A DNA stretch of 64,000 nt, taken from contig NZ_LZNS01000001.1 in NCBI RefSeq assembly GCF_001984575.1, forward strand, positions 339,307 through 403,306, in the 5' to 3' direction. A program made the position numbers and the translations under genes. The notes beneath the pieces were generated by a model. The model saw only the letters and a program-made list of their open reading frames with translations, had not been told where the DNA came from and made no database searches. Source of the DNA: Streptomyces sp. MP131-18. Its GTDB lineage: Bacteria; Actinomycetota; Actinomycetes; Streptomycetales; Streptomycetaceae. Each line of letters starts with the position of its first letter. Within the stretch, counting starts at the first letter, position 1. Positions 8,211-52,031 of this stretch are shown here, piece after piece.

Positions 8211-8354
8211 GCCACTCCGCCTCGTCTCGCGCCTGCGTACCGGGGGCCGGGCGGGCCGTCGCCGCCCGTTCCGCCGCCCCCGAGCAGTATCTGCGCACCG
8301 CCCGGTGGCGCGGACGCGCGCCCCGTGGGCGGCGGCCCGCCACCGGACCCAGAT

Positions 8355-29539: not shown

Positions 29540-29551
29540 GGGCATCTCCGG

Positions 29552-29603
29552 GGGCATGTCAGTGGTATGCCATGAGTGTGCAGGGCGGGTAATATAGCGT
29601 CAA
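29552..29603 (-). promoter_or_regulatory. Promoter and GntR-type operator of the aldolase/importer operon
   Basis: On the minus strand TTGACG (29603-29598) and CACACT (29580-29575) are separated by 17 bp; the -10 is weak. Directly after it lies the operator, read on the plus strand as GGGCAT (29552-29557), five bases, TGGTATGCCA (29563-29572). It has the same arm spacing as the sites at 16888 and 49989, so binding would block transcription of all nine genes. Confidence 0.72.
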
Positions 29604-29673
29604 CCCTCGTGCGACTGGATTCTGCGCGGCCGCATCGGAGCGGTCCGAGCGGGGCAGACGAACGATCGACCAG

Positions 29674-29683
29674 CGGCATACCA
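29674..29683 (+). promoter_or_regulatory. Core GntR-type operator before the gntR gene
   Basis: CGGCATACCA matches TGGYATRCCA at 9 of 10 positions but lacks the extra TGGCAT half-site of the other copies. It lies 68 bp before the gntR start, so it may give weak autoregulation. I see no convincing -35/-10 pair for this gene. Confidence 0.5.
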
Positions 29684-29750
29684 TGACCCCCAGCCGGAGG
29701 GGCCGGGCCGAGTGCCCGGACACCCAGTCGTGGAGCGCCAGGGAGGCGGC

Positions 29751-30482
29751 ATGATCTCACCGAGAACGACATCGGCCCAGCAGGGGTCGGCGTCGTCGTC
29801 CGCGGCGCCCGCCGCGGAGAGCCTTGAGAACCACGCGCGCCGGGCCCTGGTGGAGTGGCTGACGAAGGAGAGGCCCGCCCCTGGCCAGCCCGTGCCGGTG
29901 CGCGAGTTCGCCCGGCGGCTCGGCATGAGCCGCACCCCCGTCCGCAGCGCGGTGGGGCGCCTGTACGAGCGGGGCCTGCTGGCGTACGACGCCACCGCCG
30001 GCTTCACCGTGGCGATCCCCTCGCTCTCCAGCCTCTACGAGCTCTTCGAGCTGAGGCTGATGCTGGAGTCGCACAGCCTGCGCCTTTTCGCGGAGCGCAC
30101 CGACCGGGAGCCGCCCGCGCGCCTGCGCCAACTGGTGGACGAGGCCGGGGAGCTGGCCCGGCTGTCGCTGCGCGACCCGGAGCGGTACATCGAGTTCCGG
30201 GAGAACGACAGCGCCTTCCACCGCTCCCTGGTCGAGCTGGGCGGCCTGCCCATGATGCTGGACCTCCACGACGACCTGCACCTGAGCATCCACGTCACGC
30301 GCACCGGTCTTGAAGCCCCCATCACCGCCTCCCGCCTGAACGCCGCCGTCTCCGAGCACCGCGCGATCGTGGACGCATTGGAGAGCGGTGACCGGCTCGG
30401 GGCCAGGGAGCTGCTGGAGAGCCACATCCTCCGCGTGCGCGACCAGACCATCGCCTTCCTCGCCCGACCCAGGATGGAGTGA
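29751..30482 (+). CDS. GntR-family (FadR/FCD) transcriptional regulator
   Basis: The 243-aa protein has an N-terminal winged helix (residues about 25-85, with REFARRLGMSRTPVRSAV as recognition region) and a C-terminal all-helical FCD effector domain containing the metal/ligand pattern ENDSAFHRSL and SEHRAIVDALESGD. FCD regulators commonly respond to sugar acids or other carboxylates. The start ATG 29751 has GGGAGG just upstream. It is divergent from the aldolase/importer operon and forms a unit with the GH127 gene 6 bp downstream. The repeated TGGCAT-N5-TGGYATRCCA sites in the window are its likely operators, a link that rests on position and palindrome type. Confidence 0.88.
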   Translation: MISPRTTSAQQGSASSSAAPAAESLENHARRALVEWLTKERPAPGQPVPVREFARRLGMSRTPVRSAVGRLYERGLLAYDATAGFTVAIPSLSSLYELFELRLMLESHSLRLFAERTDREPPARLRQLVDEAGELARLSLRDPERYIEFRENDSAFHRSLVELGGLPMMLDLHDDLHLSIHVTRTGLEAPITASRLNAAVSEHRAIVDALESGDRLGARELLESHILRVRDQTIAFLARPRME

Positions 30483-30488
30483 AAGCTC

Positions 30489-34686: not shown

Positions 34687-34717
34687 GTTCGCTACTCCTT
34701 GGTCGGTGGGGAACGGC

Positions 34718-37162
34718 CTACGCGGGGCGGAGCACGTACGTGCTCCCCCGCCGGGTACCGAAGGCGACCACGTGCTCCTCCGGCCGGTCGGGCTCGGCAC
34801 CCGTGACATCCACGCGGTGCGGCGTGCGGACGCGGACGGGATTGCCCAGCAGGGAGCGCACGACGGCCCGCGTCACGCCGGACGGGCCCCACTCCAGGTC
34901 GATCTCGAAGCCGCCGCGCGCCATCAGCCCGCGGAAGGAGCCGGCGGGCCAGGCGTCGGGGAGCGCGGGGAGCAGCTCCACCTCGCCCGCGTGGCTCTGC
35001 AACAGCATCTCGGTGATCCCCGAGACCCCGCCGAAGTTGCCGTCGATCTGGAACGGCGGGTGGAGGTCGAAGAGGTTGGGCGCGGTGCGGGCCGGGGTGA
35101 GCAGCTCGCCGAGCCGTTCGTAGGCACGCACGGGGTCGAGCAGCCGCGCCCACATGTTGATCTTCCAGGCGAGCGACCACCCCGTTCCGGCGGCGCCGCG
35201 CAGCTCCAGGGTCTTCACGGCGGCGGCGGCCAGCTCGGGCGTGCCCCTGGGGGTGATCTGCGCGCTGGGGAACAGCCCGTACAGGTGGGACACGTGCCGG
35301 TTCTGGGCGAGCGCCGCCTCTTCCCAGTCCACCAGCCACTCCTGGAGCTGGCCGAGGTAGCCGATCTGCATCGGCGCCAGCCGGTCGCGGACCTCGCCGA
35401 CCCGCTCGGCGAAACCGTGGTCCCGGTCGAGCACGTCGGTGGCCTGCCGGAAGGCGTCGAAGAGATCACGCAGCAGTTGCATGTCCATGGTCGGTCCGGC
35501 ACAGACGCTGACGCTCTCGCCCTCGTCCTGGTGGTGGGTGACCTCGGGCGAATGCGAGGGGTTGGTGACCAGCCAGCCCGTGCCCGCGTCCTCGACGAGG
35601 GTGTCGAGGAAGAACTGCACCGCGCCTTTCATCACCGGGTAGTTGCGGCTCAGGGCCCCGGTGTCCCCGGTGAAGAGGTAGTGGTCCCACAGCATCAGGC
35701 TGACCCAGGCGCCGCCGGTGGGCCACAGGCCGTAATGGGCGTGGTCCACGGGCGCGGTGCCGCGCCAGCCGTCCGTGTTGTGGTGGAGCACCCAGCCGGA
35801 GGCGTCGTAGAGCGCCTTGGCGGTGCGCGCGCCGGACTCGGCCAGCTCGTGGATCATGTCCACGGCGGGGTCCCAGCACTCGGCGAGGTTCGCGGGCCCG
35901 GCCGGCCAGTAGTTCATCTCGAAGTTGATGTTGACGGTGTACTTGGACTCCCAGGACGGGTTCATGCTGTCGTTCCACAGGCCCTGGAGGTTGGCCGGCT
36001 GGCCCGGGGCGCGGGAGCAGGAGGCCAGCAGGTAGCGGCCGTACTGGAAGTACAGCGCGGCGAACTGCGGGTCGCCGCCGTCCGCGAAGAGCCCGATCCG
36101 CTCGTCCGTGGGCAGGTGCACGCGGTCCGAGGTGCCCAGATCGATGCCGACGCGGGTGAACAGCCTGCGGTAGTCGGCCACATGGCGCTCCCGCAGCCGG
36201 GCGTACGGCGTTCCGGCGGCCGGGATCAGGTGGCGGCGGGCGCGGGCGACCGGGTCGGCTCGTACGTCCAGGTAGTCGCGGTAGCTGGTGGCCAGGGAGA
36301 TGACCAGGGTGACCGCGTCGGCGTCCCGTACGGTCAGGGCGCCCTGGGCGTCGGTGCTCGTCCGCCCGCCCTCGGTGACCGCGCGGGTGACGGCGCGGAA
36401 GCGCACCGAGCCGGGAGTCTCGAACCAGTCGCCGCTGACGCCGTCGAGCGCGATCGTGCGCTCGTCGACGGCCGAACCGGTGGCCCGCTGCGGGGTGGTG
36501 AACCGGGCCGTGAAGCCGATGGCGCCGGGGGCGTCCGCGGTCAGCCGCACGACGATGACCTGGTCGGGCGCGCTGGCGAAGACCTCCCGGGTGTGGCGCA
36601 CCCCGCCGCGGGTGTAGCGGACGCGGGTGACGGCGGTCTCCAGGTCGAGTTCACGCTCGTAGCCGCTCACCTCGCCGGCCCCGGAGAGGGCGAGTTCGAG
36701 GTCGCCGAGCACCTGGTACGCCGCCTGCTCGGAGGGGGTGCCGAGGAAGTGGGAGTCGGCCAGCAGCTGCGCCTGGTACCACTTCTCCTCCACCACCAGG
36801 CGGCGGATCTCCTCCAGGTACTCCCCGGCGTCGGGCCGCGCGTAGTCGTGCGGGCCGCCGGCCCACAGGCTGTCCTCGTTGAGTTGCAGGCGTTCCGTGT
36901 CGGTGCCGCCGAAGACCATGGCACCGAGACGGCCGTTGCCGACGGGGAGCGCCTGCAACCACTCCGCGGCCGGGGCGACGTACCACAGTCGCATGGGGTT
37001 GGGCCCGTGTCCGCCGGCACCGGACGCTTCCCCGTGCGCTCCCCCGGGGGTTTCGGCGTTCGAGGCGTGCTCCGCGGCACCGGCGGCTCGGGTGGACAGG
37101 GCGGTGGCCGCCGCGCCGGCTCCGGCGGTGGCCAGTACATGGCGTCGGGACAACTCAGGCAT
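34718..37162 (-). CDS. Secreted GH95 alpha-L-fucosidase/alpha-L-galactosidase
   Basis: The 814-aa protein has a twin-arginine signal ([19 protein letters not shown], residues about 4-22), an N-terminal beta-sandwich (about 55-300) and an alpha/alpha6 barrel. Residues corresponding to the AfcA active site are present: Asn411 and Asn413 in [11 protein letters not shown], Glu540 in NPSHSPE and Asp707 in [13 protein letters not shown]95 enzymes remove alpha-L-fucose or alpha-L-galactose; in the plant polysaccharide context alpha-L-galactose of rhamnogalacturonan II or fucose of xyloglucan are candidates. ATG 37162 has GGAG 7 bases upstream. It lies 31 bp before the pectate lyase start in the same direction. 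Confidence 0.92.
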
Positions 37163-37236
37163 GGCTCGGCTCCAGTTGCGTCTCGGGGGCGGCGGGGACG
37201 GCGGGGGTCCGGAATTCGGCCGGGCGGAGTCCGTGG

Positions 37237-38433
37237 TCATCGGCGTCTCTCCGCACGGTGGCGGGCGTCGAGCTCGTCCAGCAGCGCCCGGTGCGGCCGG
37301 CCCTCGGCCAGCCCGTCGCGCAGCAGCCTCGCGGCGGCCTGCTGGAACGCGGGGTAGCCGGGCCAGCGCGGGCGCACCCAGGCGTGCTCGACGGTGGCGA
37401 GCGTGGAGCGGTAGAAGCCGCCCCACTGATCGTTGGTCCAGCGGTCGGTCCAGGCCGACCGGGCGGCGGGCTGTCCGCCGGTGACCGGGAACAGCTCGCG
37501 CTGCACCGGGTCGGCGAGCAGTCGACGCAGGTGGTCGCGGACCGCGGAGCGCGCGGCGGCGTCGCCCGTCCGCCGGCGGGAGACCGCGAGCCCGGCACCG
37601 CCGAGCACGCTGCCCGGTCGCCCGCCGGGCAGCCAGGCGGGCGGTGCGGAGAAGGCCACGGGATAGGGGCCCGAGCGCGTGTAGGTGACGTAGCCGTGCA
37701 CCAGCGGACAGTAGGCCGGTCCCTGGCCGGCGGCCATCGTCCGCAGCACGGCGACCGGGTCGGCGGAACGCAGTCCCGGCGGGGTGCGGGCGGCGAGCCG
37801 GGCCATCGTCTCCAGCGCGGCGAGCCCGTGTTCGCGCGGGAAGAGCGCGTCGTCGTCGCCGTCAGTGGCGGGCTCCCCGCGCTGGGCCAGGCAGAGCGAG
37901 CAGAAGGTGAGGAAGGCGTGCGGCCCGCCCAGGCAGAGCGTGACCGGCACTTCGTTCGGCAGCGCGCACACCTGTCCCCAGGTGCGGGGCAGGTCCCGTT
38001 CCCCCATCAGGTCCGGACGGACGGCGGCGACCTGGGCGGTGGCGTCCAGCGGCAGCGCCCAGGTGCGGTCGTCCAGGACGTAGCTGTCGAAGCTGGCGCC
38101 GACGCTGCGTTCGCGCCAGGACGCCAGCTCGGTGGGGCCGAAGAGCACCTCCATCGCCACCAGGCAGCCGGCCTCGACCGCGCCGCCGAGCCCGGAGTGG
38201 TCGACGACGAGGATGTCGTAGTCGGCGGCCAGTGCGGCGATCGGCGTCGACTCGAATCCCGACAGCGGCTGCCGGTCCCAGCGCAGCGGGCGGCCGACCG
38301 TCTCGCAGCCCGTCGGCACCGAGGCATCGATCCGGCTCAGCTCCTCCAGCGGGCCGTAGCCGCGCGGGTGGTCCCAGGTGAGGCCGCGCAGTTCGCCGGC
38401 CGCCGTGAGCGGTGCGATCACCGGAACGGTCAT
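37237..38433 (-). CDS. Solute-binding-protein-like protein without export signal
   Basis: The 398-aa protein resembles family-1 ABC sugar-binding proteins in its interior ([59 protein letters not shown]) but starts directly with [25 protein letters not shown] and has no signal sequence or lipobox, so it should be cytoplasmic. The ATG at 38433 overlaps the CaiB/BaiF stop (ATGA), so the two proteins are translationally coupled. I recall similar pairings of a signal-less binding protein with a CoA-transferase-like gene in other bacteria, but no function is established. It may sequester or sense an intracellular ligand. Confidence 0.68.
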
Positions 38434-39338
38434 GACGCCTCCCCCCGGACGCCGAGGGAGTCCTCGGCGAGCAGCGGCCACACCCGGTGCCCGGGGCCGC
38501 CCGGCCCGGCGCGGGAGCCGTCGTGCCGGGTCCTGGAGGCGGTGCCGTTCCCGGAGTCCGGGGCGGCGGGCCCGGCCTCGACACCGTGCTTCGCGAACAG
38601 GTCCAGCCACTCCGCGGTGGTGCGGCGCGGCAGCCGCAGCCGGACCAGCGCGGTGATCTCGTCCCGGCAGTTGTGGCCTCCTGTGCCCCGGCCGCCCAGC
38701 TCCGGCAGACCGAGGGCGTCACCGAGGGATTCGAGCGGCGGCATGGCCAGGGCGAGGTGGCCGTCCTTGGTCGCGAACACCCGGTAGGGGGCGCGGCCCC
38801 GGGTACGGCCGGGCGGCTCGGGCGTTCGCGCCGGGCGCCCGGCTGTCACCGAGACGAGCCGGCCCTCTCCGGTGCGCTCCCGGTGCAGCAGGGCCGCCAG
38901 CGTCCCCTCCAGGGCGGAGTCGGCGGTCAGGGCGTCGTCAGCCCGCGGTCCGGCGGGGCCCTGGCCGGAGACCGAGACATACACGATGCCGGGGTTGGCC
39001 CGGCGGATCGTCGGGTAGTCCACGCCGAGCCGTTCGGCCACTCCCGGCAGGTAGTCCTGGAGGAGAACGTCCGCGTCGCGGGCCAGGGCGAGCACCACCG
39101 ACCGCCCCCGGGCGGTGGCGAGGTTCACGGTGAGGGAGAGCTTGCCGCGGGCGGGAAGGGTGATGGCCGCGGTGCTCCCGGCGGCCCGCGCCCGGCCGTC
39201 CCCCGCGTCGTCCGGCCGCTCCGGCCGCTGCTCCACCGTGACCACGTCGGCGCCGAGGTCGCCCAGGCGCGCCGCCGGGGGCGGCCCCGCCCCGGTGACC
39301 GACAGGTCGACCACCCGGTAGCCGTCCAGAATTCCCAT
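38430..39338 (-). CDS. Short CaiB/BaiF-type CoA-transferase-like protein, catalytic segment missing
   Basis: The N-terminal part is clearly class III CoA-transferase: LDGYRVVDLSV, RLGDLGADVVTVEQ, DVLLQDYLPGVAERLGVDY and IVYVSVSGQGPAGP. The protein is only 302 aa, against about 400 for the family. The usual segment after the SGxGxxGP motif, which contains the catalytic aspartate (GYD region), is absent: the sequence jumps to LTADSALEGTLAALLHRERTGEG. The C-terminal part is also shortened. Acyl-CoA transfer is therefore doubtful. ATG 39338 has GGAGG upstream. An 8-bp tandem repeat lies just before it. Confidence 0.72.
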   Translation of the reverse strand: MGILDGYRVVDLSVTGAGPPPAARLGDLGADVVTVEQRPERPDDAGDGRARAAGSTAAITLPARGKLSLTVNLATARGRSVVLALARDADVLLQDYLPGVAERLGVDYPTIRRANPGIVYVSVSGQGPAGPRADDALTADSALEGTLAALLHRERTGEGRLVSVTAGRPARTPEPPGRTRGRAPYRVFATKDGHLALAMPPLESLGDALGLPELGGRGTGGHNCRDEITALVRLRLPRRTTAEWLDLFAKHGVEAGPAAPDSGNGTASRTRHDGSRAGPGGPGHRVWPLLAEDSLGVRGEAS

Positions 39339-39350
39339 GGTGCTTCCTCC

Positions 39351-39404
39351 GTTGTCCCGTTGTCCCGTTGTCCCGTTGTCCGTCGTCCGGTGTCCCGTCG
39401 TCCC
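39351..39404. repeat. 8-bp tandem repeat (GTTGTCCC)n upstream of the CaiB/BaiF gene
   Basis: Three perfect GTTGTCCC units (39351-39374) are followed by degenerate copies (GTTGTCC, GTCGTCCG, GTGTCCC, GTCGTCCC) to 39404. The array ends 12 bp before the start codon of the leftward CaiB/BaiF-like gene, in its leader or promoter zone. Slipped-strand length change could alter expression. It is too short and lacks spacers for a CRISPR array. Confidence 0.7.
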
Positions 39405-39454
39405 GGAGGTGCTGTGCCGGCGGCTCCGCCCGGGGCGCTCGGGGCGCCGGGCAC

Positions 39455-39500
39455 GCCGTCCGCGGATCGCGCGTGTGGTGGATCGCCCGCCGCGGACGGC
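39455..39500 (-). terminator. Hairpin downstream of the beta-helix protein gene
   Basis: GCCGTCCGCGG (39455-39465) and its exact complement CCGCGGACGGC (39490-39500) can form an 11-bp GC-rich stem with a 24-base loop, 57 bp after the stop of the beta-helix gene. There is no T-run, which is normal in actinobacteria. Confidence 0.5.
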
Positions 39501-39556
39501 CCGGCGGCGGGCCGCCCGCGGTGCTTCGGGGCCGGTCCGGCCCGTTCAGCCGGCTG

Positions 39557-41419
39557 TCAGGAGGTCTCCTCCGGCACCGGGTAGGGGAAGGAGTCCTGGA
39601 CGCCGATCCGGTCGTACTCCATCCGCGACGTGTCGAAGCCGTCCTGCCAGTTGGCGTTCTCCACGGTGTTGCACTGGTAGCTCTGGTACTTGTCGTCGGT
39701 GACCTCGCCGACCTCGATGTCGGTGAAGCTGAATCCGCAGCCGCCGGCGTCCATGTGCACGCCCCGGGTGCCGCTGTCGGGCATCGAATCGTCCGGGATG
39801 ACGTCGCCGATGACGACCTGCCGCACGTGATTGTCGATCGGGTGCGGCTCGGCGTTGTCGACGCCGTAGGTGTAGAAGGCGCCCATGTCGCCGCTGTCCA
39901 GCCCGACTTCCTCGATGCGCAGGTACTCGAAGACGTTGTCGCGGGCGTAGTTGTCCTCCGCCGCGACCTCGGGGCGCACTTCGAGGCTCACCCCGTAGCG
40001 GGCGCTGTGCTCGATGTGGCTGTAACTGACCTCGTTACGGCCGGTGTTCATCAGCTCCACGCCCGCGGCGTCGCCGGGCACCAGCTCCCCGTAGTGCGTG
40101 ATGTAGTTGTTGGTGAAGAGGTGGCCGTAGGAGGTGTCGCCCTCGCCCGGGTAGGGGCCCTCGACCTTGATGCCGTCCGCGCCGATGTTCTCCAGCAGGC
40201 TGCCCTGGACGGTCAGCCCCTCGTTGGCGAAGAGGGCGTAGACGGCGTGGTAGCCCGTGTCGGAGATGCGCATGTTCGACAGGGTGATGTCGCGGCTGTT
40301 GGTCACCGTCACCGCGCCGAAGCGGTTGCGGGGCATCTCGATCTGCCGGTCGTACTCCGGATACTCGTGCCGGTAACCCGAGTCGCCCGCGCTGATCCAG
40401 CCGAAGCGGTACCAGTCGACGAAGTCGCTGTACTGAAGGGCGAGACCGTCGAACGTGATGTTCTCGACCCGCTCCTCCGGGCTGCTGCCCGCCACTTCGA
40501 TGAGGGTGTCCGCGACCGGCGCCATGATCTCGACGTCCTCGATGTTGCCGCGCGGCTTGTAGTAGAGCTGGCCCTCGTCGTAGTCGAGGTAGTACTCGCC
40601 GGCCTGGTCGAGGAAGTCCAGGGAGTTCTGAAGGAAGTACCGTGATCCGCTCCGGCTGTTGATCAGCGCGTAGCGGGTCCAGTACTCCATGGTGATCTGG
40701 TTGTCCTCCCAGGTGGGGTTCTGGATCGGCACGGTGTCGGTGAACCAGCTCCAGCTGCCGCCCGACCAGATGAACACCTCGGCGTCGTCGAGGTCCCAGC
40801 TCGGGTCCCAGTCACCGGGGTTGGAGTACAGCCACTGGCGCACTCCTTCCTTCTCCGGCTCCTTCAGCACGGAGAACAGGTACGGCGCCCACTCCTCGTC
40901 CGAGGCGCGGTTGGGGTAGCGGGCGGTGGTGGCCCGCCGGCCGTCCTCGAAAAGCGTGTGGAACGGGTTGTCGGTGCCGACGTCGGCGCGGTAGATGCCG
41001 TCCTGGTACTCCTCCCAGTCGGTGACCCGCTCGGCGCCGACGACGCGCGCCTCGCCGGGGCCGTCGTAGCTGCGGTAGATCACCTCGTGGCCGCGCGTTC
41101 CCGAGTCGTTCTCGTCGAACTCCAGGGCCTGGTCCACCTGGTAGTCACCGGCCCGGAGGTTCACCACGATGTCGCAGCGCATCCGCCGGGTCAGGCCCTC
41201 CTCGCGCAGGTGGTCGCGGGCGTGCTCGATCGTCTGCCAGGCGTCGTCCTTGTCGCCCTCCGCGCGGTCGCTGCCGTCCGGGGAGACGAAGAACTGCCGG
41301 GGCTCGCACCCATCGGCGGCGGTGACGGCGTCCCCGGGCAGTGCGGCGCCGGCGACCAGCAGCAGGGTGCTCGCCGCCAGTACCGGAAGGCTCCGGTTCG
41401 GTCTACGGGTTCTGAGCAA
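39557..41419 (-). CDS. Secreted right-handed beta-helix glycan-active protein (GH141/GH120-like)
   Basis: This 620-aa protein has a Sec signal peptide (RRPNRSLPVLAASTLLLVAG) cut near residue 36 and then the motif FFVSPDGSDRAEGDKDDAWQ typical of beta-helix glycosidases and lyases. Parallel beta-helix repeats fill residues about 250-600 (ITFDGLALQYSDF, ITLSNMRISDTGYHAVY, GLTVQGSLLENIGADGIKVEG). The architecture resembles GH141 and related families, which include an alpha-L-fucosidase acting on rhamnogalacturonan II; the exact family needs a profile search. I take TTG 41419 as the start because AAGGAG lies 8 bases upstream and the signal peptide begins there. Confidence 0.72.
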   Translation of the reverse strand: MLRTRRPNRSLPVLAASTLLLVAGAALPGDAVTAADGCEPRQFFVSPDGSDRAEGDKDDAWQTIEHARDHLREEGLTRRMRCDIVVNLRAGDYQVDQALEFDENDSGTRGHEVIYRSYDGPGEARVVGAERVTDWEEYQDGIYRADVGTDNPFHTLFEDGRRATTARYPNRASDEEWAPYLFSVLKEPEKEGVRQWLYSNPGDWDPSWDLDDAEVFIWSGGSWSWFTDTVPIQNPTWEDNQITMEYWTRYALINSRSGSRYFLQNSLDFLDQAGEYYLDYDEGQLYYKPRGNIEDVEIMAPVADTLIEVAGSSPEERVENITFDGLALQYSDFVDWYRFGWISAGDSGYRHEYPEYDRQIEMPRNRFGAVTVTNSRDITLSNMRISDTGYHAVYALFANEGLTVQGSLLENIGADGIKVEGPYPGEGDTSYGHLFTNNYITHYGELVPGDAAGVELMNTGRNEVSYSHIEHSARYGVSLEVRPEVAAEDNYARDNVFEYLRIEEVGLDSGDMGAFYTYGVDNAEPHPIDNHVRQVVIGDVIPDDSMPDSGTRGVHMDAGGCGFSFTDIEVGEVTDDKYQSYQCNTVENANWQDGFDTSRMEYDRIGVQDSFPYPVPEETS

Positions 41420-41496
41420 AACGGGATCTCCTTGCGTGTCGGAACGTCGGCTTCTCCGGTTCCGGGAAATGGGGGTTCGGAGGTGGGGCGGGGTCG

Positions 41497-42264
41497 TCAG
41501 GCGGAGTTCCGGTCGCGCCAGCGCTCGTACTCGGCACGGGTCTCTGCGGTCAGCGGGTAGTAGTCGGCGAGTGCTCCTCCCTCCTCGATCCGGGCGCGGC
41601 TGAAGCGCTCCCACTCCTCGTGTTCGCGGGCGGCGGCGACCACCGCCTCGGCGCGCCGCCGCGGCACCACCACGGCTCCGTCGTCGTCGGCCACCACCAG
41701 GTCGCCGGGGAGCACGAGGACGCCGCCGCAGGCGATCGGCACGTCGTAGGCCCAGGGGAAGAGCTCCGCCTGCGAGGCGTAGTGCGGGGTGGCGCCGGTC
41801 GACCAGATGGGGAGGCCGGTCTGGCGCACCCGGGGGAGGTCGCGGATGCAGCCGTCGACGACGATCCCGGCGCCGCCCTTGCGCTGGAAGTAGCGCACGA
41901 GCATGTCGCCGAAGCAGCCGGTGTGCGTGCTGCCGTATGCCTGGACCATGAGCACGTCACCGGGCTCGACGGCTTCGAGCACCGCCCACAGGGCGGTGTG
42001 CCGTTCGACGTACTCGTGGCCGAGGCCCGAGGCGACGTCCTCGCGCTGCGGCATGAACTGGAGGGTGCGGACGCGGCCGACGACCGCCTGCCCGGCCGTC
42101 AGCGGGCGGGGCCCGGAGACGAACGTGCGCCGGATGCCCTGGGCGTGGAGCTTGGCGCACGCGGTGGCCGACGAGATGCCGGACAGCTCGCGCAGGAGTT
42201 CTGGGGCGGCGGTGCCTGGTGTGGCGCCGCGCACGGGCAAGTCCCACACGGGGTGGTCCTCCAC
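41497..42264 (-). CDS. RraA-family (HMG/oxaloacetate aldolase-like) protein
   Basis: The 255-aa protein matches the RraA/demethylmenaquinone-methyltransferase-like fold, with EPGDVLMVQAYGS, the Gly-x-Arg-Asp active-site segment GIVVDGCIRDLPRV and VLPGDLVVADDDGAVVVP. Catabolic members are divalent-metal pyruvate aldolases or decarboxylases for 4-hydroxy-2-oxo acids. Here it could take a branched or sugar-derived keto acid. GTG 42264 has AGGAG 7 bases upstream and fits better than ATG 42279, which overlaps that site. It lies between the beta-helix gene and an uncharacterised gene, all leftward. Confidence 0.82.
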   Translation of the reverse strand: MEDHPVWDLPVRGATPGTAAPELLRELSGISSATACAKLHAQGIRRTFVSGPRPLTAGQAVVGRVRTLQFMPQREDVASGLGHEYVERHTALWAVLEAVEPGDVLMVQAYGSTHTGCFGDMLVRYFQRKGGAGIVVDGCIRDLPRVRQTGLPIWSTGATPHYASQAELFPWAYDVPIACGGVLVLPGDLVVADDDGAVVVPRRRAEAVVAAAREHEEWERFSRARIEEGGALADYYPLTAETRAEYERWRDRNSA

Positions 42265-42330
42265 TGACGCTCTCCTCATCGTTCCGCTGGTTCTGGTCGT
42301 GTCGGGTGCTCGGGTGGTGGCACGCCGGGG

Positions 42331-44304
42331 TCAGGGGGCGGGGCGGGCCGGCCGGTGGTGGGCCGCCGGGTAGGCGCGCGGGGTCAGGCGGAGTTCGAGG
42401 CGGACCCGGCGGCCGGGTGGCAGCTCCACCTCGAGCCGGGGGCCGCCGACGGGCAGTTCGCGGGTACCGGCGGCGGTTTCCGGCGCGGTGTACGCGCGCG
42501 GGTCGCCGGGGTAGCCGGGCCCGGCGGCGCCGGCGCGGAGGGTGTCGAGGCGGACCGTCTCGATGCGGTGCTCGCCGAACGACCCGGCGCGCACCACGAC
42601 GCGGCGGGTGCCGGTGAGGCCGGTGTGGACGAGTTGCACGCAGGTGCGGTCGGGGCCGATGTCGTCGACCAGGGCGGCGATGTCGGCCGGGAGCCCCGGC
42701 CTGCCGCGCCGCGCGTCCTCGTAGGCCAGGCGCAGCGGCAGCAGCCCGCCGTTGTACAGCACCTGGGGGGTCCCGGTGGTCAGGTGCAGCAGGGCTTCGG
42801 TGAGCACGGGGTTGTGGCGTTGCCAGTGGTGGATGTCCAGGCTGCCCGGGGTGGTGGTGTCGGCGGCGATCAGCGCCATGCGCCGTTCCACCTGGGCGAG
42901 GGCGACGCCGAGGACGGCCGTCGGGTAGTCCGGGTTCTCGCCGCGCAGGTAGGCGAGCCAGGGGGCCTCGTGCCCCGCCTCCTCCTTGTTGCGGAAGCCG
43001 CGCACCGTGCGCCAGTCGTAACCGCCGGCCGCGCGCAGCCGCTCGATGCGCTCCGCGTCCTCGGCCGCCGCTCCGGCGTGCCACAGCCACACGGGCAGGG
43101 CGAGCTGGGGCGGCTGGTAGTCGAACCAGCCGCCGTCGGCGTACCGGTTGGGCACCAGCAGGGTGGGGCGGGCCGCGTCCTCGCCGAGTTCGGCGTGCCA
43201 CCGGTCGCTGATGCTCATCTCGGTGTCCGTGACGGCGCCGGTCACCGCCTGCCGGGCCACGAGGTCGAGCGGGCCGCGGCCGATGTCGAGCCCGTCGGTG
43301 CGGCCGGTCAGCAGCACGCTGTTGACCGCGGCGATCACGGCGGCGTTGCCGACGCTGTAGAGGCCGTGGGGCCAGGTCCAGCCGTAGTTGCCGCCGTACC
43401 AGCGGCCGCCGTGCAGTTCCCCCACGCGGCCGGAGGGGCCCACGTTGTCCGGCAGGACACCACCGCACTCCTCGGCGCGCCGGCGCCAGGCGGCGACGTA
43501 GCCGAGCGCCCAGTCGCGGTAGCGGTCGTCGTGGCCGTACAGCCAGGCGTTGGTGGCCAGGCTGGTGGCGGCGAGGTTGACGACGGCGTCACCGCGGCCG
43601 ATCCGCTCCCGCATGGCGGCGCCCATGCGGGCGGCGTTCGCCGGATCGGCCAGGTCCGCCCACGAGGAGATGCCCGGCAGGTCGCGCAGCGGCAGTCCGT
43701 ACGGCCGCATCGAGGCCAGGCCGGTGCCGTAGGAGGCCCACTCCTCGTTGATCCCGTAACGGGGGCCGCCTGCGCCGTTGTGCGGGGCGCGGATCACGGC
43801 CGCTTCCGGGTCGTAGTTCCCCGTCGGTGAGGACGGCAGGTACAGCTCGGCGAAGCGGTGGGCGCGCGCCTCGAAGTGCTCGTCACCCGGGTCGGCGGCG
43901 CAGATGCCGTAGAACAGCAGCATCGACTCCCCGAGGTGGAACCAGTCGTAGCCACGCTCGAACTCGTCGACGACGTAGCCGCGTTCGGTCAGCTGGGCGG
44001 TGACGCCCAGCCAGTGGTGCTTGGCGGCGTCGAGAAGGTCGTCGGCGCCGCCGAGCTGGTAGAGGGTCGGCCAGTTGAAGAACGCCTCGTAGAAGTCGTC
44101 GGCCCCGTCACGGCTGGCCGAGGGCCCCTCGTAGCGCAGGCTGCCGTCGGGCGCGCAGTAGCGGCCGGCGAAGGCGCGCCAGGCTTCGTCGAGCGCGTCG
44201 AAGAGCCTGCGCTGGAGCACGGCCCACAGGGGCGGCACACCGACGGGAACGGAGGCGGTGACGCGCGGCGGAGCCGCCTCCGCATCTCCCGGCCCATGGC
44301 TCAT
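42331..44304 (-). CDS. Uncharacterised large protein of the glycan locus
   Basis: I cannot assign this 657-aa protein. It is soluble, without a signal peptide. Residues about 25-540 are helical with Trp/Tyr/Gly-rich turns such as DDFYEAFFNWPTLYQLGG, ERGYDWFHLGESMLLFYG, WYGGNYGWTWPHGLYSVG and ADGGWFDYQPPQLALPVWL, consistent with an alpha/alpha barrel. The last 120 residues (VQLVHTGLTGTRRVVVRAGS onward) look like a beta-sandwich. This is a common plan for glycosidases and lyases. ATG 44304 follows GAGGAGG. It is the first gene after the divergent HTH-GntR fusion regulator and precedes the RraA-family gene by 66 bp. Confidence 0.7.
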   Translation of the reverse strand: MSHGPGDAEAAPPRVTASVPVGVPPLWAVLQRRLFDALDEAWRAFAGRYCAPDGSLRYEGPSASRDGADDFYEAFFNWPTLYQLGGADDLLDAAKHHWLGVTAQLTERGYVVDEFERGYDWFHLGESMLLFYGICAADPGDEHFEARAHRFAELYLPSSPTGNYDPEAAVIRAPHNGAGGPRYGINEEWASYGTGLASMRPYGLPLRDLPGISSWADLADPANAARMGAAMRERIGRGDAVVNLAATSLATNAWLYGHDDRYRDWALGYVAAWRRRAEECGGVLPDNVGPSGRVGELHGGRWYGGNYGWTWPHGLYSVGNAAVIAAVNSVLLTGRTDGLDIGRGPLDLVARQAVTGAVTDTEMSISDRWHAELGEDAARPTLLVPNRYADGGWFDYQPPQLALPVWLWHAGAAAEDAERIERLRAAGGYDWRTVRGFRNKEEAGHEAPWLAYLRGENPDYPTAVLGVALAQVERRMALIAADTTTPGSLDIHHWQRHNPVLTEALLHLTTGTPQVLYNGGLLPLRLAYEDARRGRPGLPADIAALVDDIGPDRTCVQLVHTGLTGTRRVVVRAGSFGEHRIETVRLDTLRAGAAGPGYPGDPRAYTAPETAAGTRELPVGGPRLEVELPPGRRVRLELRLTPRAYPAAHHRPARPAP

Positions 44305-44346
44305 GGCTGCCTCCTCGACTTGGGCGATCATGGTTTAGTGGGTCAA

Positions 44347-44468: not shown

Positions 44469-45686
44469 ATGGAGACACCAGAGCCCGTGACCGATCCCCG
44501 TTTGCCGAGGTTTCCGCAGCTGAGCGAGGAGGACCGCGCGACCCTGCGCGAGTGGTCCTCGCGACCGCCCGAGGCACTGCGCATGCGCAGCCGCATGGTG
44601 CTGGCCTGTGCCGAGGGGCTGACGAACGCCGAGATCGCCAGGCGCCTCCAGGTCAGCCCCGCGACGGTGGCCAAGTGGCGGGAGCGCTACCTGAGCCGGG
44701 GAGTGGCCGGGCTCGGCGACGCCCCCCGGTCGGGGCGCCCGCGCAGCGGCAGCCGGCAGGACGCGGAGAGCCGTATCGCCGACGTGCTCGAACAGACCCG
44801 GCGCGGCGACCCCGTTCCCTCCACCCGCGCGCTCTCCCGGGCGCTCGGCCTGTCCCAGTCCACGGTCGCCCGGATCTGGCAGGAGCAGCAGCGCGAGCAG
44901 GAGGAGGCGCGGCCGTCGGCGGACGCCGCCCCCGCCGACGCCGCCCCCGCCGACGGCGGCGACACGGCCCTCGCCACGCCGCTGCCCAGGCAGTTGCTCT
45001 CCGACCACGTGTACGCGCTGCTGCGCGGCTGGATCGTCGGGGGCGAACTGCTGCCCGGCCAGCGGCTCGTCGAGTCGCACATCGCCCGCCGGGTCGGCAC
45101 CAGCCAGGCGCCCGCCCGCGAGGCGATCAAGCGGCTCGCGCACGAGGGGCTCGTGATCTCCCAGTCGCACCGGGGCACGTACGTCGCACAGGTCTCCGAG
45201 CAGCAGGCGCAGGACGTCCGCGATATCCGGGTGATGTTCGAGGAGTACGCGGCGCGCAGGGCGAGCGGGCACCTGGACGGCGCACACCTGCGGCTGCTCA
45301 CCGACGACGTGGAACGGCTGCGCCGGGCGGCCGAGGACGGCGACATCGGCGACTTCCGGGATGCCGACATGTCGTTCCACCGCCATGTCTGCGAAGCGGC
45401 GGGGAACTCGGCGCTGACCCGCCTCTGGCGCATGATCGAGTCCAGCATGTGGGGCCTGCACGTGCTGGGCAACCCCCGTTACACCGGCGACTGGCGGGCG
45501 ATGGCCGAGTACCACGCCGAGCTGCTGGACGCCCTGCGGGCCGGCGACCCGGACACGGCGGGGCCGATGTTCGCGGCGCACGCCGCCGGCGAGGCGACCC
45601 GCTACCACCGGGAGCACCCCGCGCCCGCGCACCACCCGACCGGTGAACCCGGTCCCTTACCCTGTCCCCCGCACCGGGAGTCGTGA
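44469..45686 (+). CDS. Fusion regulator: IS630-type HTH region plus GntR/FCD
   Basis: Residues about 12-140 match the N-terminal DNA-binding region of IS630-family transposases: LSEEDRATLREW, RMRSRMVLACAEGLTNAEIA, SPATVAKWRERYLSRGVAGL and a second HTH in STRALSRALGLSQSTVARIW. There is no DDE nuclease domain. After an Ala/Pro/Asp linker (about 147-165, encoded by a 15-bp direct repeat) comes a complete FadR-type GntR regulator: winged helix (about 175-240, HIARRVGTSQAPAREAIKRL) and FCD domain (about 250-385, DADMSFHRHVCEAAGN). The total is 405 aa. No ribosome binding site precedes ATG 44469, and CATAAAT lies about 10 bases upstream, so a leaderless message is possible. It faces the 44304 gene and overlaps the start region of a GH28 gene. 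Confidence 0.83.
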   Translation: METPEPVTDPRLPRFPQLSEEDRATLREWSSRPPEALRMRSRMVLACAEGLTNAEIARRLQVSPATVAKWRERYLSRGVAGLGDAPRSGRPRSGSRQDAESRIADVLEQTRRGDPVPSTRALSRALGLSQSTVARIWQEQQREQEEARPSADAAPADAAPADGGDTALATPLPRQLLSDHVYALLRGWIVGGELLPGQRLVESHIARRVGTSQAPAREAIKRLAHEGLVISQSHRGTYVAQVSEQQAQDVRDIRVMFEEYAARRASGHLDGAHLRLLTDDVERLRRAAEDGDIGDFRDADMSFHRHVCEAAGNSALTRLWRMIESSMWGLHVLGNPRYTGDWRAMAEYHAELLDALRAGDPDTAGPMFAAHAAGEATRYHREHPAPAHHPTGEPGPLPCPPHRES

Positions 45687-45688
45687 CC

Positions 45689-47113
45689 ATGAGCCGTCCC
45701 GCACGCAGAAAGGTCCTGCGGCTGGGCGCCGCGGCGGCCGCCACCGTTCCCCTGGCCGGCGCCGCAGGCGTCCGCGACGCGTACGGAGCCCCCGGAGTCA
45801 CCGGGGCCACCACGTGCCCGCGCTTTCCCCGAGCCTGGTTCCCGATCACCGACTACGGCGCCGTCGGCGACGGCGCGAGTGACTGCACGGCCGCCATCCG
45901 GGCGGCGGTGCACGCCTGCCACGCCGCCGGCGGCGGGCACGTACTGGTCCCGCCCGGCGACTGGGCCACCGGCGCGATCCACCTGCGCAGCGGCGTCGAC
46001 CTGCACGTCGCCGAGGGCGCGACGGTGCTCTTCGACACCGATCCGGCGGCCTACCTGCCCCTCGTTCTCACGCGCTGGCAGGGGGTCGAGGCGTGGAACT
46101 ACTCCCCCCTGATCTATGCCTACCGGCAGCACGACATCGCCGTCACCGGCCGCGGCGTCCTCGACGCGCGGGGCGACATGGAGCACTGGTGGCCGTGGAA
46201 GGGGTCGGGCCAGTACGGCTGGGAGCCGGGCATGCCAAGCGAGCTGGCGGACTGGGGCGACCTGGAGCGGTGGGGGGCGGAGGGCGTCCCGGTGGCGGAC
46301 CGGGTCTTCGGAGAAGGGCACTACCTGCGGCCCAGCTTCCTCCAGCCGCACTCCTGCCGGAACGTCCTCGTCGAGGGCGTCACCCTGCGCAACTCCCCCT
46401 TCTGGAACATCCATCCCGTCCTGAGCCGCGACGTCACCGTCCGGGACGTGCGGATCGAGTCGCAGGGCCCCAACAGCGACGGCTGCAACCCCGACTCGTG
46501 CCGGAACGTCACCATCCGCCGGGTCACCTTCGCCACCCATGACGACTGCATCGCCATCAAGTCCGGCCGCGACCAGGACGGCTGGCGGGTCGGCGTCCCG
46601 TCCCGCGACATCCTCGTCGAGGACTGCGTCTACCTCAGCGGCGGCGCCGCGGTGGCGATCGGCAGCGAGATGAGCGGCGGCGTCTCCGACGTGACCGCCC
46701 GCCGGCTGTACCTGCCACGCGACCCGGACCTCGAAGAGGACTCGGTGGGCTGGGTCCTCAACGTCAAGTCGACTCCCACCCGCGGCGGTTACGTGCGCGA
46801 TGTCCGGGTGACGGACGTCGACGCGCCCGCCTGGACATACGTGCCGTTCGAGGTGACCTTCCAGTACGCGGGCGGTACCGGCGGCGAGCACTTCGCCGAG
46901 GTCTCGCGGCTCTCGGCGGCGCGCTGGTCCCTGGGCGGCCCCTGCGAGTACCCGGTGCGCGTCCGCGCCCGCCCGGCGGCTCCCGTGCGCGACGTGCGGC
47001 TGGTCGGCCTGACCTTCGACGACGCCGCGCAGGACATCCTCCTGGAGTCCGTCACCGGCCTCCGCATGCACGACGTCGTCGTCAACGGCGAACCCCGGGA
47101 AGGGCCGCTCTGA
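45689..47113 (+). CDS. Secreted GH28-like protein with altered active site
   Basis: This 474-aa protein has a twin-arginine signal (ARRKVLRLGAAAAATVPLAG) and a GH28 beta-helix. PNSDGC keeps the first catalytic Asp (Asp264) and HDDC the Asp pair, but the GHG histidine is a glycine in LSGGAAVAIGSEM and the RIK arginine is Asn in LNVKST. It is thus a third GH28 paralogue, and the second lacking both signature residues. ATG 45689 (GGGAG 8 bases upstream) is preferred to GTG 45683, which would overlap the regulator's stop. It is probably co-transcribed with the fusion regulator. Confidence 0.86.
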   Translation: MSRPARRKVLRLGAAAAATVPLAGAAGVRDAYGAPGVTGATTCPRFPRAWFPITDYGAVGDGASDCTAAIRAAVHACHAAGGGHVLVPPGDWATGAIHLRSGVDLHVAEGATVLFDTDPAAYLPLVLTRWQGVEAWNYSPLIYAYRQHDIAVTGRGVLDARGDMEHWWPWKGSGQYGWEPGMPSELADWGDLERWGAEGVPVADRVFGEGHYLRPSFLQPHSCRNVLVEGVTLRNSPFWNIHPVLSRDVTVRDVRIESQGPNSDGCNPDSCRNVTIRRVTFATHDDCIAIKSGRDQDGWRVGVPSRDILVEDCVYLSGGAAVAIGSEMSGGVSDVTARRLYLPRDPDLEEDSVGWVLNVKSTPTRGGYVRDVRVTDVDAPAWTYVPFEVTFQYAGGTGGEHFAEVSRLSAARWSLGGPCEYPVRVRARPAAPVRDVRLVGLTFDDAAQDILLESVTGLRMHDVVVNGEPREGPL

Positions 47114-48453: not shown

Positions 48454-49914
48454 CTACGGCCGGCGCGGGTCCCAGCCGTCGAGCAGGGTCGCGGGGTCGC
48501 GCCATCGCTCGGCCTCGCCCGCGTCGAGCTGCTGCGAGCAGGGCAGCCGGTCGCCGACGTCCACCGGGGCGCCGGTCAGGTCCGTGCTGCCGTGCTCCCA
48601 GAAGCGCAGCCGGTCCGCCGTGGCACAGTCGGCGTCCGTGAGGGCCCAGCCCACGGGGGCGATGTGGGCGTCCATGGCCGAGTCGATGAAGACGACCTGG
48701 CTGCCGAGGAAACGGCTGTCGATGCGGCCGAGCAGCACCGACCCCTCGGGCACCGACGGGGCGCGGGTCAGCCGGGTGTCGACGAAAACGTTGCCGGGGC
48801 CGTCCGGGGCGTTGCGTATCTGGGTCACGTATCCGACGTCGAGGGAGCGCAGTTCGGAATCCTGGACGAACACGCCGCCGGTGCCCCAGACGAAGTCGAC
48901 ATCGCCCTCGACATAGCTGTCGGTCACGAAGGCCCGGCCCTGGAGCCGCAGGCTGTCCTGGTGGCTGAGCACGGCGACGCGCTCCAGCACGATGCGGTCC
49001 CCGTTGCCGCGGAACGCCTCGGCCTGGGAACCGCCGTCGGGCGTGAGGTTGTGCACGGTGAGGTCTTCCAGCCGGAAGTCGTCCGCGTCCACACCGAACG
49101 CCGCCCGCCAGCAGTTGAAGCGGTCGGGGTGCGGGAGCACGCGGCGCGGGCAGTAGCTCTGCCGGGCCGGCACGTCGGCCATGGCGGCGTCGCCGTTGAG
49201 CACGCTGTTGTTCGGATACCCGATCACGGTGCGGCCGGCGCCGCTGCCGCCGACCGTGAGGTGCGGCTTCGTCTGCGGCACGTAGACGATCTCGCGGTAC
49301 ATCCCGGGTGCCACGTCGATGCGGACGTCCTCGGTGTTGTCCTCGGGAACGAAGTCGACGGCACCCTGGACGGTGCAGAAGTCACCGCCGCCCGACTGGT
49401 CGACCGTCAGCTCCCGGGCGCCGGGCGCCGGCCCCTCCTGGGTACGGAACCGCCAGGTCTGCGGGTCCTCGATGCCCGCCCGGCCGCGGACGAAGCCCTC
49501 GTCCATGGTGACGTAGTACTCCTGGCCGGGGTCCAGGACGTAGTGCAGGTGGACCGAAACGGTCCGGCCGTCCACCACCACCGGCTCGTAGAACCAGCGG
49601 TGCACCTCGCCGTAGTCCGACAGCGCGCCACCGATGCTGCGCTGGTACGTGCCCGGGTCGGCGAGGTCGATGTTGTCGACCAGCGTCCCGTCGGCGTGGT
49701 GCACCTGCAACTGACCGCGGTCGCCCAGTTGTACGGGGCCGTCGAAGGTCAGCCGCAGGGCGGTGTCCACGCAGACGGGATCGGCGAGCCCGCGCGGCTG
49801 GAGGTCCGGCGCGGGACGGGCCGCGGGGGTGTCGGCGGCGGCCTGCTGGGAGACGGCCGGCACGAGGACCGTGAGCACCCCGGCGAGTGCCACGAGTGGG
49901 CGGAACAGGCGCAT
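48454..49914 (-). CDS. Secreted CE8 pectin methylesterase
   Basis: This 486-aa protein has a Sec signal peptide (residues 1-27, ending VSQQAAA), an N-terminal beta-sandwich-like region (about 40-165) and a CE8 beta-helix. Active-site motifs are GSQAEAFRGNGDR, LSHQDSLRL with the acid/base Asp, VEGDVDFVWGTG with the nucleophile Asp, and LLGRID with the conserved Arg. It demethylates homogalacturonan and so prepares it for pectate lyase and GH28 enzymes. ATG 49914 is supported by AAGGAG 8 bases upstream. It diverges from the oxidoreductase/esterase fusion gene. Confidence 0.92.
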   Translation of the reverse strand: MRLFRPLVALAGVLTVLVPAVSQQAAADTPAARPAPDLQPRGLADPVCVDTALRLTFDGPVQLGDRGQLQVHHADGTLVDNIDLADPGTYQRSIGGALSDYGEVHRWFYEPVVVDGRTVSVHLHYVLDPGQEYYVTMDEGFVRGRAGIEDPQTWRFRTQEGPAPGARELTVDQSGGGDFCTVQGAVDFVPEDNTEDVRIDVAPGMYREIVYVPQTKPHLTVGGSGAGRTVIGYPNNSVLNGDAAMADVPARQSYCPRRVLPHPDRFNCWRAAFGVDADDFRLEDLTVHNLTPDGGSQAEAFRGNGDRIVLERVAVLSHQDSLRLQGRAFVTDSYVEGDVDFVWGTGGVFVQDSELRSLDVGYVTQIRNAPDGPGNVFVDTRLTRAPSVPEGSVLLGRIDSRFLGSQVVFIDSAMDAHIAPVGWALTDADCATADRLRFWEHGSTDLTGAPVDVGDRLPCSQQLDAGEAERWRDPATLLDGWDPRRP

Positions 49915-49954: not shown

Positions 49955-50009
49955 TCGGCAGACCGGAAGAGCGCTGCTACTCTTCCCTTGGCATGCATCT
50001 GGCATACCA
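49955..50009 (+). promoter_or_regulatory. Promoter and GntR-type operator of the oxidoreductase/esterase fusion gene
   Basis: TCGGCA (49955-49960), 17 bp, TACTCT (49978-49983) is a likely promoter. The operator follows five bases later: TGGCAT (49989-49994), five bases, TGGCATACCA (50000-50009). Spacing is identical to the sites at 16888 and 29552, placing this gene about 20 kb from gntR in the same predicted regulon. Confidence 0.72.
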
Positions 50010-50108
50010 GCTTGATGGAAGCACAGCGGCACCACGCTGAACACCCCCCTTGAGGCCACTTTCGGGACCGCCCGCACCGAACGCCTGTCTCCCCCGAGGA
50101 GTGTGCGC

Positions 50109-52031
50109 ATGACCGTTCCCCCGCAGGCCGGTACGCCGGTCCCCGTCGTGCTCTGCGGCATCCGCGGCTACGGCGGCCACCACCGCGCGAACCTGCGGCG
50201 GCTCGTCGGCGAAGGCCGGGTGCGCGTCGTCGGCGTCTGCGACCCGGCGGCGCCCGCCGACGGCGAGCTGGACGGCCTCGGCGAGCCCGCGTGGTCCGCC
50301 GACCTTGCCACCCTGCTGAGCGAACGGCGCCCCGCGATCACGGTCGTCTCCACGCCGATCCACACGCACCTGGACCTCGCGCTCACCGCCCTGCGGTCCG
50401 GCTCCCACCTGCTCCTGGAGAAGCCGCCCACCCCCTCGCTCGCCGGTTTCCTGGAGCTGGCGGGCGCGCTGCGGGCGACAGGGCTGGCATGCCAGGTGGG
50501 CTTCCAGTCCTTCGGCTCCCGCGCCCTGGCCGCCGTACGGGAGCTGGTGGCGGACGAGGCCATCGGCCGACCGCACGGCATCGGCGCCGCGGGGGCCTGG
50601 GTGCGCGACGCCCGGTACTACGTCCGCACGCCGTGGGCCGGGCGCCGCCGTCTCGGCACGGGCTCAGGCGCGGCGGACACGGTCGACGTGGTGGACGGCG
50701 TGCTGACCAACCCGCTGGCGCACGCCGTGGCCACCGCCCTGCGGATCGACGGCGGCGACCGCGCCGAGGACGTCGCCGCGGTGGAGCTCGAGCTCTTCCG
50801 GGCCCACGACATCGAGGCCGACGACACTTCCTGCCTGCGGCTGACGACCACGCGCGGGACGATCGTCACCGTCGCCGCCACCCTGTGCGCCGAACGGAAC
50901 GCCGCACCGTACGTCGTCGTGCACGGCGAACGGGGCCGCATCGTCCTGTGGTACACCGAGGACCGGGTCCTCCTGGAGCGCGCGGGCCACGGGCCGGAGG
51001 AGCGCGTTCATCCCCGCACCGACCTGCTGGACGATCTGATCGCGCATCTGCGGGACGGCGGCGGGCTGTTGAGCCCGCTGGAACGCAGCGGCGCCTTCAC
51101 CCGCGTCGTCGAGGCGGTCCGCACGGCCCCCGACCCGGCGCGCCTGCCGCCGGGGGCCTGGCACGCGAAGACGGACGGGGCGGCGCCGCGCCGCGTGATT
51201 CCGGGCGTCGGGGCGCTGGTGGACGCGAGCGCCGCGTCCCTCTCCCTCTTCTCGGAGCTCGGCGCCCCCTGGGCCGTCCGGCGCACCCGGGTTCCGCCGC
51301 GGCGCCGCGGCCGGGGCGGGCGGGCGGCACGCCGCACCCTCCACCTCGCCGGCGACTCCACCGCGGCCGGGAAACCGGCCTCGGCCGCCCCGATGACCGG
51401 CTGGGGCGTGGCACTTCCCCGGTTCCTCGCCCAGGACCTGGCCGTGGCGAACCACGCCGCCGACGGCCGCAGTTCGCGCAGTTTCCTGCTGGAGCGCCGG
51501 CTCGACCCGATACTGCGGGCCCTGCTCCCCGGCGATCTGCTGCTGGTCCAGTTCGGCCACAACGACCAGAAGACGGAGGACGCCTCGCGGCTGACCGACC
51601 CGTTCGGCACCTACCGGCACTGCCTGCTGCGCTACGTGCGGGCCGCGTGCGACCGGGGCGCGCGTCCTGTGCTCCTCACCCCGGTGGAACGCCGCCGCTT
51701 CGACGCGGCGGGCCGCGCCGTGGCCACCCACGGCGACTACCCGGGAGTGGTGCGCGAACTGGCGGCGGCGGAGGGCGTCCCGCTGCTGGACCTCCAGGCC
51801 GAGACCCTCGCGCTGTGGCAGCGGCTCGGACCGGAAGGGAGCAAGGACGCCTTTCTGTGGCTCTCCCCCGGCGAGCACCCCAACCACCCGCGCGGCGCCC
51901 GGGACGACACCCACTTCCGGCCGCACGGCGCCGCCGAGGTGGCGCGCCTGGTCGCGCGCGGTCTGTGTGCCGCAGGGCTGCTCGCGCCCGAGGACCTGCG
52001 CGGCACGGCGGACCTGCCGCCTCTTCCGTGA
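50109..52031 (+). CDS. Fusion: Gfo/Idh/MocA oxidoreductase plus CE12-like rhamnogalacturonan acetylesterase
   Basis: Residues about 10-360 form a Gfo/Idh/MocA dehydrogenase: a Rossmann domain starting VVLCGIRGYGGHHRANL, the EKPPTPS lysine motif and a C-terminal alpha/beta domain. Residues about 408-640 form an SGNH esterase of the CE12 type, with GDSTAAG (Ser417), NHAADGRSSRSF, VQFGHNDQK and DDTHF (Asp599, His602). The 640-aa protein has no signal peptide, so both activities would be cytoplasmic: deacetylation and NAD(P)-linked oxidation or reduction of an imported sugar. ATG 50109 has GAGGAG 7 bases upstream. The promoter carries a GntR-type operator. Confidence 0.87.
   Translation: MTVPPQAGTPVPVVLCGIRGYGGHHRANLRRLVGEGRVRVVGVCDPAAPADGELDGLGEPAWSADLATLLSERRPAITVVSTPIHTHLDLALTALRSGSHLLLEKPPTPSLAGFLELAGALRATGLACQVGFQSFGSRALAAVRELVADEAIGRPHGIGAAGAWVRDARYYVRTPWAGRRRLGTGSGAADTVDVVDGVLTNPLAHAVATALRIDGGDRAEDVAAVELELFRAHDIEADDTSCLRLTTTRGTIVTVAATLCAERNAAPYVVVHGERGRIVLWYTEDRVLLERAGHGPEERVHPRTDLLDDLIAHLRDGGGLLSPLERSGAFTRVVEAVRTAPDPARLPPGAWHAKTDGAAPRRVIPGVGALVDASAASLSLFSELGAPWAVRRTRVPPRRRGRGGRAARRTLHLAGDSTAAGKPASAAPMTGWGVALPRFLAQDLAVANHAADGRSSRSFLLERRLDPILRALLPGDLLLVQFGHNDQKTEDASRLTDPFGTYRHCLLRYVRAACDRGARPVLLTPVERRRFDAAGRAVATHGDYPGVVRELAAAEGVPLLDLQAETLALWQRLGPEGSKDAFLWLSPGEHPNHPRGARDDTHFRPHGAAEVARLVARGLCAAGLLAPEDLRGTADLPPLP

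Follow-up and report, generated by a model that had tools for sequence, protein, structure and literature searches.

Can a sugar dehydrogenase and an esterase, which are encoded as separate proteins elsewhere, be joined in one cytoplasmic protein, and what would such a protein do? This question is raised by a gene of Streptomyces sp. MP131-18 that lies in a 64,000-nucleotide stretch of contig NZ_LZNS01000001.1 (the window, to which all unprefixed coordinates refer). A preliminary description of this DNA had proposed that the gene fuses a Gfo/Idh/MocA oxidoreductase to a rhamnogalacturonan acetylesterase-type domain.

Reality of the fusion

The fusion gene opens with an ATG at 50109, with a GAGGAG ribosome site 7 bases 5′ of it, and its frame continues uninterrupted to 52031 (Table 1). 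Three Pfam families match the 640-residue product above their gathering scores, namely GFO_IDH_MocA (residues 16-132), GFO_IDH_MocA_C3 (141-279) and Lipase_GDSL_2 (415-592). The preliminary description had warned that a lost stop codon might have merged two genes, and the junction was checked for this. Frame 0 is free of stops from 51201 to 51420, and the sole stop in the two other frames, at 51394, lies beyond the Ser417 codon. Frame 0 has no start codon between 51219 and 51393, so an unfused esterase at this place would be without a start. A merging error is therefore unlikely, and an artefact via a lost stop is ruled out by these positions. The gene is in the interior of a 7.86 Mb contig, in an assembly of 7.96 Mb in 10 contigs. 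The reading frame, the Pfam matches and the start and stop layout together confirm, at the level of sequence, that 50109-52031 is a true gene fusion.

GC content by codon position is coding-like in the two domains (0.79/0.56/0.94 and 0.82/0.54/0.91) and flat in the linker (0.91/0.87/0.91), as expected of a stretch rich in Arg, Gly and Pro. Compared with relatives, each domain has changed more at third codon positions than at first and second ones, which suggests purifying selection on both.

Table 1. Coordinates of the fusion gene, its parts and its surroundings within the window.
Feature	Position	Strand	Basis or remark
Fusion gene, 640 aa	50109..52031	+	ORF and Pfam
Gfo/Idh/MocA domain, residues ~8-389, WlbA-like	50130..51275	+	Pfam, alignment, AF2 model (pLDDT 93.6)
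Arg/Gly/Pro-rich linker, residues 390-408, low model confidence	51276..51332	+	Sequence, AF2 models
SGNH / rhamnogalacturonan-acetylesterase-type domain, residues 409-640, without signal peptide	51333..52028	+	Pfam, alignment, model
Codon of nucleophile Ser417 (GDST)	51357..51359	+	Position arithmetic
Codons Asp599 to His602 (DDTH)	51903..51914	+	Position arithmetic
Pectinesterase (CE8), divergent neighbour of the fusion gene	48454..49914	-	Pfam
GH28 of the same pectin island	45683..47113	+	Pfam
Rest of island: SBP_bac_5, DHDPS, GntR, GH127, PelZ-like, GH95, CoA transferase, GH141-like, RraA-like, 666-aa protein	26593..44331		Pfam, NCBIfam, comparison with G210
Conserved box TGGCATACCAG(N3)GATGGAAGCACA, CE8/fusion intergenic region	50000..50025	+	Also 5′ of the lone esterase in G210

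The two domains

The domains were modelled separately, and a full-length alignment that misplaced esterase rows on the Gfo domain was left out. Mean pLDDT is 93.6 for the dehydrogenase and 94.0 for the esterase domain, the weak parts being the linker ends.

Membership of the first domain in the Gfo/Idh/MocA family follows from profile scores of 45.5 bits for PF01408 (cut-off 24) and 30.4 bits for PF22725 (cut-off 27). The lysine of an EKP motif and a downstream histidine are typical of this family, and both are present, as K105-P106 and as H205 within N201-x3-H205; an IEADDT motif occupies residues 235-240. All 32 aligned rows retain N201, H205, W164, R166, Y170 and E236-x-D238-D239-T240, and 29 retain K105. 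The UDP-GlcNAcA 3-dehydrogenase WlbA (3q2k, 3q2i) ranks top both in a profile search (E 7.8e-29 and 2.1e-27; next 2.4e-19) and by Z in a fold search (33.2 and 32.6, rmsd 2.9, 321-322 residues aligned; next 31.5), and its N-x3-H and IE-x-DT motifs align with those of the fusion. By sequence and predicted fold the domain is WlbA-like, a uronate 3-dehydrogenase being its closest relative. Identity to the solved enzymes listed is 14-23%, and a substrate cannot be read from the fold alone, as a large number of Gfo structures differ by just a few units of Z and only WlbA stands slightly apart. Scores fell below all curated NCBIfam cut-offs, among them those for IolG inositol 2-dehydrogenase (45.8 against 355 bits), levoglucosan dehydrogenase (27.3 against 650) and BT_2158 glycoside 3-dehydrogenase (22.7 against 750). 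Identity to WlbA is 19%. UDP-GlcNAcA itself is made an unlikely substrate by the pectin context.

Descent of the Arg-rich linker from the leader of the G210 esterase discussed below is not supported: their alignment score of 26.0 compares with a shuffle mean of 28.4, and 761 of 1000 shuffles scored at least as high. Behind the linker, the SGNH blocks are complete, with Ser417, Gly453, Asn485, Asp599 and His602 unchanged in all 40 relatives that were aligned; the three catalytic residues named beforehand (Ser417, Asp599, His602) are correctly placed, and Asn485 is now added. The nearest folds are YxiM of Bacillus subtilis (2o14; Z 27.6, rmsd 2.9, 208 residues aligned) and the fungal rhamnogalacturonan acetylesterase of A. 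aculeatus (3c1u/1deo; Z 26.5/26.3, rmsd 2.0/2.2, 209/211 aligned), well above the next match at Z 18.9. Fold ranking and motifs thus uphold the assignment to the rhamnogalacturonan-acetylesterase type. The model of the pectin acetylesterase PaeY (NCBIfam NF041897) was matched over part of its length only, with 67.5 bits against a curated cut-off of 1000.

No export signal was seen at the N-terminus of the fusion protein, in line with the cytoplasmic location proposed for it. Signal-peptide calls here and below come from a custom check of hydrophobicity and RR motifs, not from SignalP.

The pectin island

The fusion gene lies in an island of pectin-related genes (Table 1). Its set of GH127, GH95, GH141-like and GH28 enzymes (26593-49914) recalls, we presume, the breakdown of rhamnogalacturonan II. 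ORFs resembling a permease and an ABC ATPase, labelled by eye, adjoin the gene for the solute-binding protein (SBP). Three island proteins on the minus strand are without a Pfam match (666 aa, 42331-44331; 404 aa, 47151-48365; 457 aa, 37237-38610), and the 666- and 404-aa proteins are also without an NCBIfam match; with 74-84% identity to counterparts in genome G210, all three are candidates for new pectin enzymes.

The 26-base box at 50000 is possibly an operator. The window contains 24 box-related 11-mers where 8.0 would be expected, a count reached in 0 of 100 shuffles (palindromic sites being counted twice), and two of them lie between the DHDPS and GntR genes. The sharing of the box, this excess and the position of these two make a common regulator of the box-bearing sites plausible. 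TGGCATACCA-like boxes are found in or near promoters at 29562, 29674, 16898, 17121 and 50000, and are possibly a GntR/FCD operator. A regulator encoded at 44469-45686 (+), 74% identical in G210, joins transposase-like HTH_29/HTH_23 domains to GntR-FCD.

Rarity and origin

The two-domain architecture is very rare. A protein search found the fused form in one of 61 genomes, that of MP131-18. DNA matches of some kind occur in 242 of 392 Streptomyces genomes; among the matches listed, stronger than about 1e-73, those spanning the junction come from two genomes, MP131-18 and G008. Further fusions were found neither among 79 Actinomycetes-class genomes (a set that includes G000 and overlaps the others) nor among the 80 loci listed of 584 confirmed ones (a list that may omit close relatives of the window), and none of 41 plasmid records with a match covers 80%. 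In the genomes, loci and plasmids searched, the fusion is not widespread. No paper on a Gfo/Idh/MocA-CE12 fusion was found in the open-licence literature.

In G008 the domains are two genes, the esterase ATG, behind a GGAGG site, overlapping the dehydrogenase TGA (ATGA, L115:645-648). The esterase tree (64 rows) gives the window sequence G210 as its sister (100/99) and keeps both apart from the clade of exported Streptomyces enzymes, to which G008 belongs. The dehydrogenase tree (86 rows) joins the window sequence to G185 as sisters (97/95) and groups G008 with G287 (97/93). As the fused and the G008 pairs are not sisters in either tree, the two pairings are independent, and the cytoplasmic pairing is indicated to have arisen at least twice. 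The same trees rule out direct descent of the fusion from the G008 pair.

The G210 island matches that of the window gene for gene, at 73-87% identity (49% for the CoA transferase). At the site of the fusion, G210 has a signal-less esterase alone, with a Gfo gene located on a different contig, which shows that the pairing is not obligatory. Either the Gfo gene was gained in MP131-18 or it was lost in G210. The CE8 marker of the island was found in 4 of 392 Streptomyces genomes; in two genomes that carry it (G379 and G094), the flanking stretch examined holds no esterase or Gfo match, with some gene calls on relatives' stretches, these included, made by a simple custom script.

Unfused relatives and export

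Most Streptomyces have the two genes in a single pectin cluster, at a distance of 4-7 kb. Among the loci listed, 12 of 17 Streptomyces dehydrogenase loci are followed on their own strand by an esterase gene, ~4-5.5 kb away, and five have none within flanks of up to 10 kb. The SirexAA-E locus (L018) is arranged as ABC permeases, Gfo, DUF6807, GH43, SBP, esterase, pectate lyase and pectinesterase; no paper on DUF6807 was found in the open-licence literature. Separate Streptomyces esterases carry an RR motif and a hydrophobic stretch (Tat-like) in 20 of 21 genes checked. Streptomyces thus mostly export the esterase, so that esterase and dehydrogenase usually act in different compartments. The lone exception (G143; L163, around 8270-8300) has a start codon that overlaps the SBP stop (GTGA) and is signal-less, and would represent another loss of export.

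The esterases of G008 and G210 are without an RR or hydrophobic export stretch. Six Arthrobacter-type loci (L021, L022, L023, L025, L027, L030) have signal-less esterases that start MKILLAGDS, with Gfo genes nearby. In G459, of another family, a Gfo gene is followed by a DUF6807-like ORF (by eye) and a signal-less esterase. In Paenibacillus nanensis (L086:9791-12247), a CE12-like ORF is preceded, at a distance of about 40 bases, by a Gfo-like ORF of a different type. A signal-less CE12-type enzyme is listed in a Paenibacillus study (PMC6339884). The preliminary description was therefore right for Streptomyces in stating that CE12 enzymes are often secreted. An intracellular location is not special to the fusion, as it had implied, since unfused signal-less copies occur in G210, G143, the six Arthrobacter-type loci and Paenibacillus.

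Proposed function and alternatives

We favour, with moderate confidence, a cytoplasmic enzyme of pectin catabolism, probably that of rhamnogalacturonan, which would deacetylate imported oligosaccharides and oxidise a resulting sugar. The island's secreted enzymes would cut pectin, and an ABC importer would take up oligosaccharides that are still acetylated; once they are inside the cell, the SGNH domain would strip their acetyl esters and the Gfo/Idh/MocA domain would oxidise a freed sugar with NAD(P). From protein families, compartment and gene neighbours we infer both activities, the substrate, the order of the steps and a benefit of the join. A linked function is favoured by the co-clustering of the two genes in 12 of the 17 listed Streptomyces loci, their overlap in G008 and their proximity in G459. 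Against this reading stand the esterase of G210 without an adjacent Gfo gene, the usual export of the esterase in Streptomyces, and the occurrence of the fusion in a single genome, where a second fused sequence would have shown that the join is maintained. The channelling suggested by the preliminary description is unsupported: the flexible linker and the separate domains elsewhere fit simple co-expression equally well.

The galacturonate of pectin carries acetyl groups at O-2 and O-3. Together with the resemblance to WlbA, this suggests a narrower version, which we regard as quite doubtful: the SGNH domain would remove the O-3 (or O-2) acetyl group of galacturonate, and the WlbA-like domain would oxidise the freed 3-hydroxyl to a 3-keto-uronide. 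If both domains did act at the same position, a keto/elimination route of pectin breakdown would take the place of hydrolysis.

The join might instead be neutral. A Gfo gene would have come to lie just ahead of a solitary esterase gene lacking a signal and would read into it, leaving two active domains that work on unrelated molecules and gain nothing from being joined. The esterase standing alone at the same place in G210, the absence of esterase and Gfo matches from the examined flanks in G379 and G094, the linker without a codon-position signature and the single fused genome are all consistent with this account. We nevertheless consider it unlikely, if with a real chance of being right, because in several lineages the two genes independently lie side by side or share a cluster, which speaks for a functional link. 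It is also compatible with the sequence that one domain is inactive and serves as a scaffold or sensor; this is very improbable, as every catalytic residue is in place and varies little or not at all among relatives, and the codon-position pattern suggests purifying selection in both domains. An assembly or sequencing artefact would find its best opening in the very GC-rich linker, where errors are likelier, but the start and stop codons that two genes would need are missing, and the mid-contig position in a 10-contig assembly leaves such an error extremely improbable.

Comparison with known systems

The components of the fusion have precedents: cytoplasmic CE12-type enzymes, separate Gfo enzymes and other CE12 fusions are already known from two papers (PMC6339884, PMC10189120), the latter naming YesT and BH1115 among CE12-type rhamnogalacturonan acetylesterases. 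With the solved enzymes of this type (1deo/3c1u and YxiM) the MP131-18 domain shares fold, SGNH motifs and a pectin setting; it differs in sequence (27% identity), in being joined to a dehydrogenase and in having no signal peptide. The PL11-CE12 protein Pamy_4308 (PMC6339884) likewise joins a pectin acetylesterase domain to another pectin enzyme, but has a signal peptide and a lyase partner. The separate Gfo protein and Tat-signal esterase of L018 are 59% and 62% identical to the respective parts of the fusion, and are encoded by two genes about 4 kb apart, with products in different compartments.

WlbA makes cell-surface sugars, whereas the fusion lies in a pectin catabolic island with no UDP-sugar context. 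Oxidation at C3 of a UDP-linked uronic acid is described for Pseudomonas WbpB (PMC10622841). Sets of Gfo, IlvD/EDD and DHDPS genes form oxidative, non-phosphorylative sugar pathways, as for L-arabinose in A. brasilense (PMC9795676). A paralogue cluster of MP131-18 itself (L117) has genes of all three kinds; the island of the window differs, as its scanned proteins include DHDPS but not IlvD/EDD. The L-arabinose dehydrogenase AbADH has Asp169 and Asn173 according to PMC9795676, where the fusion has N201-x3-H205, a comparison of residue lists rather than a residue-level alignment.

Significance

The fusion is a strong hint that the two enzymes share one pathway. It would link an actinobacterial Gfo/Idh/MocA subfamily, common in Streptomyces pectin clusters, to the acetyl groups of pectin, and this tie makes the substrate of the subfamily testable. 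The intracellular deacetylation of imported acetylated pectin fragments is called unusual in the Paenibacillus paper (PMC6339884). The fusion lends support to the view that certain bacteria take up pectin fragments with their acetyl groups still attached and remove these groups intracellularly.
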